This document shows, piece by piece, positions 13,247-45,877 of a stretch of DNA of 56,626 nucleotides. The stretch is from Burkholderia sp. BCC0322. Its GTDB lineage: Bacteria > Pseudomonadota > Gammaproteobacteria > Burkholderiales > Burkholderiaceae. The stretch is from NCBI RefSeq assembly GCF_902833045.1, contig NZ_CADFDU010000023.1, forward strand, positions 1-56,626, in the 5' to 3' direction. The translations under genes and the position numbers were made by a program. Numbering within the stretch: position 1 is the stretch's first letter; the number at the start of each line of letters is the position of its first letter. The notes below the pieces were generated by a model, which ran no database searches, had not been told where the DNA came from, and worked only from the letters and a program-made list of their open reading frames with translations.

Positions 13247-14287
13247 TCACCCGTTCGCGGCAACACCCGGCACACCGCTGCCGTGCCCACGCCCGCGCGA
13301 TGCCGGGTGAATCGCATGCACATTGCCCGGGGCATCCGCCGGCAGCACGCCGTGTTGCAGCCAGTAGAGCGCCAGCGGCCACAGCGTGTCGGTGAAGCGG
13401 CTGTGGAAAAACGCGAAATGGCCGATCGCTTCGGCGCCGATGTCGGCCGGCGCGATCCGCAGATGCGTGACGTCGCTGCCCGTGTAATAGCCGACCAGCC
13501 GCTCGATCGCCTCGACCGTGCCGAACCCGTCGTCGTCGAGGCCGATCGCGAGCATCGGTGCCGACAGTCCCGCGAAGCGGGCGGGCAACGCGGCGCGACT
13601 CGCGGCGGGTTCGGCGAGCGGGCCGCTCGTATAGCCCTCCTCGAAGCGCGCCTGCGAGCGCACCCACGACAACGCGATGCCGCGCGGCGTGTCCTCCATC
13701 CAGCCGAGCCGCTTCGCGGGCACATAGCCGAACACGGCCGCGAGCGCCGGCATCGCGACATGCCACTTCCACCACATACGCCGCCGTTCGGCCGGCAAGT
13801 AATCGCGCCAGTACGCATACTGCGCGCCGACCGTTACCGCATGTCGCACGTGAGCGTTCGATGCGGCGAGCCCGAGCGCGAACCCGCCGATGCTGTGCGC
13901 GACGACGTCGATCGGCTGGCCCGCAAACGCGTCACGCGCGTATTGCAGCGCGGCTTCGCAATCGAGCCGCCCCCAGTCGAGCCAGTTCGCGCGCAGCTTC
14001 GCGAGCTGCGCCGGGCGCGACCCGCCGATGCCGCGATAGTCATAGACGAGCACGTCGCGCCCCTGTGCGAAAAGCCAGGCTGCAAAACGAAAGTAGTAGT
14101 CGCAACGCACCGAAGTCGCGCAATTGATGACCGTCACGGGCCGCGCGACGCTGCCGCCGCGATGGCGCCACACATGGCCGCGCAATGCATAGCCGTCGGC
14201 CGCGTGCAACGTCACCGGCTCGGGTGGCAATGCGTCCGCCGCGCGGGTGTCCTGTGTCATCTCGCTGCCTTCGTTCGAAATTGTCAT
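13247..14287 (-). CDS. Alpha/beta hydrolase family protein, function unknown
   Basis: A 346-residue alpha/beta hydrolase. I use the ATG at 14287, preceded by AGGAGAC; an ATG nine codons in is also possible. Strand motifs are HAADGYALRGHVWRH, VTVINCATSVRCDYYFRFA and VLVYDYRGIGGS, followed by the nucleophile elbow AHSIGGFALGLA (serine about 145). The candidate acid and histidine are IGLDDDGFGTVEA and IGHFAFFH. It resembles the COG4757-type predicted hydrolases, whose substrate is unknown; I see no signal peptide. It is read away from the 92-bp repeat array, which fills its upstream region. It may be co-transcribed with the phosphopantetheinyl transferase 150 bases downstream. Confidence 0.75.
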   Translation of the reverse strand: MTISNEGSEMTQDTRAADALPPEPVTLHAADGYALRGHVWRHRGGSVARPVTVINCATSVRCDYYFRFAAWLFAQGRDVLVYDYRGIGGSRPAQLAKLRANWLDWGRLDCEAALQYARDAFAGQPIDVVAHSIGGFALGLAASNAHVRHAVTVGAQYAYWRDYLPAERRRMWWKWHVAMPALAAVFGYVPAKRLGWMEDTPRGIALSWVRSQARFEEGYTSGPLAEPAASRAALPARFAGLSAPMLAIGLDDDGFGTVEAIERLVGYYTGSDVTHLRIAPADIGAEAIGHFAFFHSRFTDTLWPLALYWLQHGVLPADAPGNVHAIHPASRGRGHGSGVPGVAANG

Positions 14288-14300
14288 CTTGTCTCCTGTC

Positions 14301-14640
14301 GACCGCAGTTAGCGCTTCAGCGCTTACTGCGGTCCCATGGCGTGGTTGGGTGGAGTTAGCGCTTCAGCGCTTACTCCACCCCCACGGCGGTCGATCGCGG
14401 TTAGCGCTTCAGCGCTTACTGCGGTCCCATGGCGTGGTTGGGTGGAGTTAGCGCTTCAGCGCTTACTCCACCCCCACGGCGGTCGACTGCAGTTAGCGCT
14501 TCAGCGCTTACTGCGGTCCCATGGCGTGGCTGGGTGGAGTTAGCGCTTCAGCGCTTACTCCACCCCCACGGCGGTCGATCGCGGTTAGCGCTTCAGCGCT
14601 TACTCCACCCACGGCGGTCGATCGAAGTCAGCGCTTACCC
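14301..14640. repeat. Tandem 92-bp repeat array of alternating hairpins
   Basis: Seven copies of the core TTAGCGCTTCAGCGCTTA start at 14309, 14356, 14401, 14448, 14493, 14540 and 14585, that is two cores per 92-bp unit. Each core is a near-palindrome that extends into matching flanks. Type A has CGCAGT before and ACTGCG after; type B has GTGGAGT before and ACTCCAC after. Each therefore forms a stem of about 14-16 bp with one mismatch and a tiny loop. Copies alternate A,B,A,B,A,B. The seventh has an A-type left flank and a B-type right flank, and a degenerate copy follows near 14627. The array lies between two divergent genes, so it is not a terminator. I do not recognise the family. Confidence 0.9.
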
Positions 14641-14823
14641 TGCCCCCACGCCCCGCAATCCATCCAGGTCAGCGCCTCAAGCCAACTCACGCCCATGCTT
14701 CACAGCCCAGCCGGGGCGTCAACCGACCAACACCGGCCCCATCCCCCACGCCCGCCTCCATTGAACTTGACGCGGCCCGCGTTCTCAACCAATCTTGCTG
14801 CTCCGTTCGCATGAGTCACGCGC

Positions 14824-15765
14824 ATGTCAACGCCGCTCGTCCGTCTCCCATCGCTCGACCTCGTCCGCGGTTTCGTCGCCGTCGGTCGCCGCATGAGCAT
14901 CACGCTCGCCGCGCAGGACCTCTGCGTCACGCAATCGGCGGTCAGCCGCCAGGTGCACGCGCTCGAAGCGCATCTCGGCGTCGCGCTGCTGCAGCGCGGC
15001 TACCGGAAGATCGCATTCACGCCGGAAGGCGAGCGGCTGTTTCGCGTCGCGGATGCGGCACTGCACGGCCTGCAGGACACCGTCGCGTCGCTCGCCGCCG
15101 CACGCGAGCGCCAGCCCGTCACGATCACCGCGAGCATCGGCGTCACCGCACTGTGGCTGCTGCCGCGGCTCGGGCGGCTGCAGGCGCGCCTGCCCGAGAT
15201 CGACCTGCGCGTCGCCGCGAACGACAAGGTACTCGATTTGCGCACCGAGGGCATCGACCTCGGGATCCGCTATTGTCCGCGCGACCGCGCGCCGGCCGGC
15301 GCACTGCGCCTGTTCGACGAGATCGTCGTGCCGGTCGCGCATCCGGCGCTCGCCGCGCGGCCCGTCACGAACGCAGCCGCGATCGCCGATCACGTGCTGC
15401 TCGAATTCGACGGGCCGCCGCAGCCGCAATTGCAGTGGCGCGCGCACCTGCACGCGGCCGGGCTCGGCGACGCGCGCCCGAAAGGCGTGCTGCGCTTCAA
15501 CCAGTACGACCAGGTGATCCAGGCCGCGATCGCGGGCCAGGGCGTCGCGCTCGGCCGGCTCGCGCTCGTCGCGCCGATGCTCGCGGACGGGCGGCTCGCG
15601 GTGCTCGGGCCGCACACCCAGGCACTGTCGGATGCGTACGGCTACTGGCTGTTCCAGCACGATCCGGCCCCGCGCCGCGAAGTAGCCGACGTCCGCGACT
15701 GGATGCTCGCCGAAGCGGCCGAATGCGATGCCGCGATGCGTGCGCACGACATGGCGTCGGCGTAA
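14824..15765 (+). CDS. LysR family transcriptional regulator (GcvA-like subgroup)
   Basis: A 313-residue regulator. The HTH occupies about 1-65 (LAAQDLCVTQSAVSRQVHAL followed by HLGVALLQRGYRKIAFTPEG). The effector-binding domain starts near 95; ASIGVTALWLLPRLGRLQ and DLRTEGIDLGIRYCPRD are typical of the GcvA/AmpR-like branch. LysR proteins are cytoplasmic tetramers that usually act on a neighbouring promoter. The nearest candidate target is the MFS transporter 187 bases downstream on the same strand, or the hydrolase across the repeat array. The ATG at 14824 has no strong ribosome binding site, but the next in-frame ATG would truncate the HTH. Confidence 0.88.
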   Translation: MSTPLVRLPSLDLVRGFVAVGRRMSITLAAQDLCVTQSAVSRQVHALEAHLGVALLQRGYRKIAFTPEGERLFRVADAALHGLQDTVASLAAARERQPVTITASIGVTALWLLPRLGRLQARLPEIDLRVAANDKVLDLRTEGIDLGIRYCPRDRAPAGALRLFDEIVVPVAHPALAARPVTNAAAIADHVLLEFDGPPQPQLQWRAHLHAAGLGDARPKGVLRFNQYDQVIQAAIAGQGVALGRLALVAPMLADGRLAVLGPHTQALSDAYGYWLFQHDPAPRREVADVRDWMLAEAAECDAAMRAHDMASA

Positions 15766-45837: not shown

Positions 45838-45877
45838 CGCCGGCCGCACCTCGCCGGCCGCACCTCGCCGGCCGCAC
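45838..45877. repeat. Three tandem 14-bp repeats after exbD
   Basis: CGCCGGCCGCACCT occurs three times head to tail (the third ends CGCACAC). It lies between the exbD stop and the terminator. Tandem short repeats like this vary in copy number between strains; no function is evident. Confidence 0.85.

Follow-up and report, generated by a model that had tools for sequence, protein, structure and literature searches.

A tandem array in Burkholderia belongs to a family of short predicted hairpins that usually face one direction and often stand in tandem before Shine-Dalgarno sequences

Background

Between an alpha/beta hydrolase gene and a LysR-type regulator gene of Burkholderia sp. BCC0322 lies an array of near-identical short repeats, and the question is what this array is and what it could do there. 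The window (the whole stretch of 56,626 nucleotides that was analysed, contig NZ_CADFDU010000023.1) had received an initial annotation that described seven cores with two alternating types of complementary flanks, assigned them to a divergent promoter region, and proposed a cruciform-forming, recombination-prone element or a REP-like repeat mobilised by a RAYT transposase. Here we describe the array, its counterparts in related genomes and the explanations that may account for it.

Results

The array and its surroundings

The features of the locus are the following:

13247..14287, minus strand: alpha/beta hydrolase gene (Pfam Hydrolase_4), whose presumed leader contains the array
14293..14297, minus strand: Shine-Dalgarno sequence (SD) AGGAG of the hydrolase gene, straight after hairpin-CGAC (from the sequence)
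14299..14336, minus strand: gene-proximal type A hairpin, abutting the hydrolase SD (model R1, 61.8 bits; predicted fold -26.5 kcal/mol, z -6.5)
14346..14383, minus strand: type B hairpin with a CGTGG/CCACG extension on each side (covariance model, fold)
14391..14428, minus strand: type A hairpin with 2 arm mismatches (covariance model, sequence)
14438..14475, minus strand: type B hairpin (covariance model)
14483..14520, minus strand: type A hairpin with 1 arm mismatch (covariance model, sequence)
14530..14567, minus strand: type B hairpin (covariance model)
14575..14610, minus strand: chimeric copy, B left and A right, arms mismatched (34.4 bits; z -1.0)
14618..14647, minus strand: decayed eighth copy, core partly missing (16.1 bits, E 0.066)
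14824..15765, plus strand: divergent LysR-type regulator gene (ORF, family search)

Exact matches to the core TTAGCGCTTCAGCGCTTA occur seven times in the window, spanning 14309-14602, while the chance level is a mean of 0.03 matches with up to 3 mismatches (100 shuffles), and Tandem Repeats Finder describes 14298-14604 as period 92, 3.3 copies and 95% matches; the seven identical cores and the two flank types are confirmed. Spacing alternates between 45 and 47 bp. In the minus-strand reading, each intact copy consists of 8-pair arms, a T-A pair, an A-A mismatch, five further pairs and a UGAA loop. The type B arms are GGGTGGAG/CTCCACCC, with 8-base arms fully complementary in all three B copies and a helix lengthened by CGTGG/CCACG beyond an AA bulge; the type A arms of the gene-proximal copy, GACCGCAG/CTGCGGTC, are likewise fully complementary over 8 bases. 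Since the two remaining A copies carry one and two arm mismatches, the earlier statement that each copy has complementary flanks holds for the B copies and for the gene-proximal A copy, and was slightly overstated for the others. The type B copy is predicted to fold at -33.9 kcal/mol (z -6.5). The chimeric copy folds no better than its shuffles, and it has the composition that recombination between cores would leave, as the initial annotation had proposed.

The covariance model finds in the window the seven copies and the decayed eighth, all on the minus strand, together with plus-strand echoes for six copies that score below the sense matches, and no further array elsewhere in the window. At 45838-45877 the window also holds a perfect 14-bp tandem repeat of 2.9 copies, CGCCGGCCGCACCT. 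Folded whole as RNA, the leader reaches z -11.2 against shuffles; in its best predicted structure the copies pair with each other and only the gene-proximal hairpin stands alone.

The minus-strand end of the array coincides with the SD of the hydrolase gene, in the arrangement hairpin-CGACAGGAGACAAG-ATG. No sigma-70 promoter was found between 14000 and 15000. The LysR protein shares 99% identity with a B. aenigmatica protein. The gene pair is divergent, as had been noted, but what had been called a divergent promoter region is better described as a presumed hydrolase 5' leader that the array occupies as far as the SD.

Orthologous loci

Searching for orthologous LysR loci returned 80, of which 31 (L031-L061) were examined for the array. 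Copies with at most 4 core mismatches precede the LysR gene in 15 of these 31 loci, in numbers from 1 to 9, and are absent from 16. In 13 of the 15 array-bearing loci the first copy adjoins the hydrolase SD, the exceptions being L032, where it is decayed, and L057, where it could not be placed; the arms of the first copy vary between species and are compensated in most cases. Seven element-free sites (L045, L046, L047, L049, L051, L052 and L060) have a like SD, ACAGGAGAC, close before the ATG, and so the SD need not arrive with the element. The covariance model, run on 24 loci without a clear array, returned a single weak match (L032). L033 and L032 lack the gene-proximal hairpin and keep the SD, GCATGGG joining almost directly to the GGAG of the SD, and the L033 junction is the expected scar of a deletion between the GGAG of the arm and that of the SD; the gene-proximal hairpin is thus not essential in these two loci. 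An unrelated G+C-rich hairpin occupies the same spot before the hydrolase SD in L045, L051 and L052.

A local assembly artefact, which the initial annotation had named as a possible refutation, is unlikely, because other Burkholderia have like arrays at the corresponding locus and other genomes have them at other genes. These other arrays, tandem and in some cases strictly alternating, also speak against a single-copy terminator hairpin without tandem organisation elsewhere.

Structure and conservation of the hairpin

The family unit consists of GCATGG, a 14-pair hairpin whose core TAAGCGCTRAAGCGCTAA contains an A-A mismatch and which is closed by a URAA loop, and CGAC(A). For 89 distinct hairpins out of 100, taken with at most 4 core mismatches and no pairing filter, arm pairing is 0.806, as against 0.607 (maximum 0.663 of 1000) for arms dealt among copies. 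Alignment A1 (59 sequences, at most 3 core mismatches) gave a covariation score of 0.376 versus 0.166 when shuffled and 102 cells with double-sided changes that keep pairing versus 36 in shuffles, values that are biased upward because at least 6 of 8 arm pairs were required for entry. The two arm versions described in the initial annotation are thereby supported, as is the maintenance of arm complementarity by compensatory change. The core, the loop, the A-A mismatch and the ends GCATGG and CGACA are conserved (core, loop and ends as judged from 79 of 83 gene-proximal copies); loop, mismatch and both ends vary less than the covarying arms.

Conservation is also polar. In 37 arrays of at least 3 copies, which are not fully independent since some are orthologues, the gene-proximal copy retains 7.73 of 8 arm pairs, compared with 6.16 in the most distal one, and the two have 0.43 and 2.08 core mismatches, respectively; for arm pairs the gene-proximal copy is better in 23 arrays, equal in 13 and worse in 1 (Wilcoxon p 3e-5). 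This polarity could come from growth at the gene-proximal end instead of selection. As for the strand, G-U versus A-C combinations read in sense number 56 versus 35 in the arms and 17 versus 33 at paired core positions, and because arms and core point in opposite ways the pair types do not settle which strand acts as RNA. Local folds give the gene-proximal hairpin an arm-pair probability above 0.8 in 46 of 75 cases. Predicted accessibility of the SD is 0.476 with left-arm pairing and 0.424 without it, being higher in 36 of 61 cases (p 0.084). This difference is not significant, and the idea that folding alone insulates the SD was set aside.

Distribution of the family

In the nearest genome compared (G001) the core pattern occurs at 34 places with at most 2 mismatches, whereas the reversed control gives 0, and model R1 gives 48 matches. 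Across the genus R1 matches 59 of 61 genomes, with 2 to 84 matches each; G046 has the most hairpins of this sample, and G051 and G058 have none. At family level, 79 of 200 genomes have matches, representing 8 of 25 genera. At order level the count is 5 of 300; four of these genomes are again members of this family, and the match in the fifth is marginal (E 5.9e-4). A BLAST search that used the window array as query hit megaplasmids of Burkholderia, Paraburkholderia and Caballeronia (13 records). Eight of these 13 were inspected and carry no annotation at the hairpins, so that gene context was taken from ORF tests and HMM searches. The same array has no match among phage records, and a phage origin was rejected on this basis.

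Neighbouring model matches share one strand in the window and in G001, G007, G036 and G517. Arrays are mostly uniform (49-50 bp) or alternating (45/47 bp); other spacings occur in L114 of G007 and in L173 and L179 of G517, and the alternation is broken in L005. All nine 45/47 arrays listed have a type A copy next to the gene.

Eight genomes were searched for Y1_Tnp transposase genes, and seven of them have only one marginal gene. G051 and G058, the only two hairpin-free genomes among the eight, carry such a marginal gene too, and hence mobilisation of a REP by a RAYT, as initially suggested, is not supported in this sample, which is too small to dismiss a transposase altogether. G046 has, besides its marginal gene, a strong Y1_Tnp match with two internal stop codons (G046:C8:95889-96254).

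Placement before genes

The trait common to the clusters, which the initial annotation had missed, is sense orientation directly before a predicted SD. Placement was evaluated in three genomes of the genus (G001, G007 and G036) and in one of another genus of the same family (G517), with clusters defined at E 0.01 in G001 and G007 and at 1e-5 in G036 and G517; a cluster was scored as preceding an SD if the next 60 nt held at least 4 bases from AAGGAGG and a start that opens a reading frame of 60 codons or longer. Matches at rRNA operons were left out: in G007 eight matches forming four like pairs, of which L124 was read as an rRNA operon and the three others were taken as rRNA from their equal scores and spacing, and in G036 L139 (rRNA) together with five places of equal score presumed to be rRNA.

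Clusters in sense before an SD and a start number 75 of 83 (G001 21 of 24, G007 14 of 16, G036 22 of 24, G517 18 of 19), one of them, L130, scored as sense solely via a doubtful ORF; the opposite-strand test gives 7 of 83. Hairpin and SD are separated by 1 nt in 40 of the 75 and by at most 5 nt in 61, the gaps ranging from 1 to 40 nt. Among the misses, L020, L145 and L155 have an SD-like sequence followed by a short first ORF; L123 and L138, in two genomes, are antisense, 35 nt before a tgt-like gene that we take to be tgt; and L121, L137 and L182 have no start codon in reach, more hairpin-like sequence intervening before the gene in L182. In L155 (G036) the SD is followed by a very short ORF and then by a longer transporter-like ORF, and a leader peptide is possible.

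The direction of the upstream gene could be called for 63 of the 75 clusters and is the same strand in 45 and the opposite in 18. The stop-to-array gap is at most 97 nt in 22 of the 45, and many clusters therefore sit between genes in operon-like spacing.

The downstream genes form 57 groups, of which 16 carry the hairpin in at least two of the four genomes, two of these also in G517. Family searches covered 55 of the 57 groups, with at most the first 330 residues, and 51 of the 55 had a match at the limits used. Many of these matched genes encode metabolic enzymes or transporters. ATP synthase epsilon, quinolinate synthase and 2-methylcitrate synthase score above the NCBIfam cut-offs, and an ExbD/TolR-type protein below. 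The enzymes further include tryptophan synthase alpha, thiolases, glycine cleavage P-protein, a lipoyl-domain E2-like subunit, sarcosine oxidase delta, MmgE/PrpD, acyl-CoA dehydrogenases, AMP-dependent ligases and short-chain dehydrogenases; the transporters are MFS, dicarboxylate and others. Peptidases, a sigma-70-type factor, a DhaR-like regulator and proteins of unknown function are also found.

Hairpins at rRNA operons

In the rRNA operon L124 of G007, kindred hairpins stand on either side of the 23S gene, outside the likely precursor stem; the 5' one points in sense and the 3' one in antisense. Three further pairs of places in G007 match L124 in scores and spacing, and in G036 (L139) a kindred hairpin lies on the 3' side of 23S. 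These rRNA-flanking hairpins hint at RNA handling.

Discussion

Comparison with known systems

The hairpin family seems to be undescribed. Among the 23 Rfam matches listed for 13500-15500 none reaches its gathering threshold, so a known Rfam family was set aside, in agreement with the earlier remark that no known family was recognised. Our literature search, whose reach did not extend to many subscription papers and supplementary tables, found no description of the hairpin, nor is it described in the portions available of a B. cenocepacia start-site map (PMC4603805), of the ncS35 study (PMC5760752), of PMC2267715 and of a VNTR study (PMC1853098). A table in PMC5968390 includes GCGTAAGCGCTAAAGCGCTAACGCC, from Paraburkholderia terrae, among CRISPR repeats and marks its cas genes 'NI'; this repeat contains the same core as the window array. 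A CRISPR array was rejected for the window, as there are no unique spacers and the spacers are themselves repeated.

Judging from the consulted parts of the sources, the nearest parallels are BOX (PMC3049150) and the TAACTGA repeats (PMC4679880). BOX of Streptococcus pneumoniae likewise has tandem hairpin modules in variable number between fixed ends, its length differs by strain, and it reportedly alters expression of the downstream gene; in contrast to the present family, which faces in sense and abuts the SD, it is reportedly over-represented between convergent genes, and the host and, by description, the ends differ (PMC3049150). The TAACTGA direct repeats of Beggiatoaceae have a 7-nt unit (PMC4679880), whereas here units of 45-50 nt with a covarying hairpin are followed by a normal SD. 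REP/BIME elements, too, are short palindromes, many per genome and grouped, but as described in the accessible text (PMC2817692) REPs alternate in orientation, while the present neighbours face one way before an SD, and in the eight genomes searched, two of them hairpin-free, a Y1 gene shows no correlation with the hairpins. Correia elements of Neisseria and ERIC resemble the present hairpins, whose transcription is presumed, in being transcribed palindromic repeats; they are reported RNase III targets and putative RNase E targets, respectively, but are described as insertion elements, for which the sections available report no tie to an SD (PMC2649163; PMC3049150).

Possible explanations

On the sequence evidence (structure, covariation, orientation, adjacency to the SD, gene-proximal polarity and recurrence at 16 of 57 gene groups), we favour, with a probability of roughly 0.55, a tandem cis-acting RNA element whose unit, lying in sense directly before the SD, would raise mRNA stability or translation. 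The hairpin, placed in a 5' leader or between operon genes, would act within the mRNA on the following cistron; most likely it would protect or set a processed 5' end, which in turn would increase mRNA stability or translation. Stability and processing are favoured over translation, which comes second, because many copies are intercistronic and the SD-exposure test was not significant. Recombination or slippage among the nearly identical units would add copies, and older distal copies would decay. Besides the placement, pairing and polarity data, the rRNA-flanking hairpins speak for this reading. Against it weigh the 16 LysR loci that have no copy, the loss of the gene-proximal hairpin in L033 and L032, the exceptions in orientation and start codon, the pairing of copies with each other in the whole-leader fold and the small difference in predicted SD accessibility.

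Hairpins located before a ribosome-binding site (RBS) or at an mRNA 5' end, such as RiboJ-type insulators and the ompA 5' stem-loop, expose the RBS or stabilise the mRNA, but they are engineered or belong to single genes and are not genome-wide repeats.

The main competitor, a possible reading though clearly a less probable one, is an RNA operator of a regulon, in which a protein or small RNA would recognise the conserved core together with the mismatch and the loop next to the SD and would control translation, copy number setting the strength of joint control over many genes. The stronger conservation of loop, A-A mismatch and ends relative to the arms is what a recognition site would lead one to expect, and the many metabolic enzymes and transporters downstream fit a regulon; the housekeeping genes among the targets (ATP synthase epsilon, tryptophan synthase alpha) fit it poorly. 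We are more doubtful about a selfish, REP- or IS200-like mobile hairpin that would insert in one orientation beside CTCCT, the complement of the SD, any function being secondary. Its conserved ends, its fixed side and orientation, its patchy occurrence at a single locus, the existence of reversed copies and the SD already present at element-free orthologous sites would be in line with such an origin, but a Y1_Tnp gene does not track the hairpins in the eight genomes searched, phage records give no match to the window array, the SD gap varies from 1 to 40 nt, two gene groups carry the hairpin in both genera compared, and arm pairing is best kept beside the gene.

An element acting on DNA, whether as a cruciform or as an operator for a DNA-binding protein in a divergent promoter, appears very improbable. 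Both strands of the array do fold as DNA and the gene pair in the window is divergent, but divergence is no common factor of the family, as an opposite-strand upstream gene occurs in only 18 of the 63 confidently called clusters and 45 lie behind a same-strand gene; orientation and SD spacing would also be hard to account for. Least credible of all is an intrinsic terminator or attenuator: the stems are strong and G+C-rich, but no stem followed by a T run was found in 14000-15000 (0 sites), and the hairpins directly precede the genes that they would shut off.

Conclusions

The array in the window is a member of a family of short predicted hairpins in Burkholderia and its relatives that usually point in one direction, often stand in tandem and precede the SDs of dozens of genes, many with metabolic roles, whose protein output they may tune. 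Going farther, we put forward only as a speculation a post-transcriptional regulon extending over the family, with a shared operator abutting the SD, a dedicated RNA-binding factor or ribonuclease that would also meet the hairpins flanking 23S, and copy number as an expression dial. Since orthologues with no, one and many copies exist, the role of intergenic hairpin repeats becomes directly testable. The family may also account for some of the 'CRISPR' calls without cas genes, to judge from the part of PMC5968390 available. If the cis-acting RNA element is confirmed, it would represent an undescribed layer of gene control in several genera comprising soil bacteria, opportunists and symbionts, and a control that could be read from the sequence: the gene behind the hairpin and the spacing to the SD are known, and the copy numbers form a natural series.
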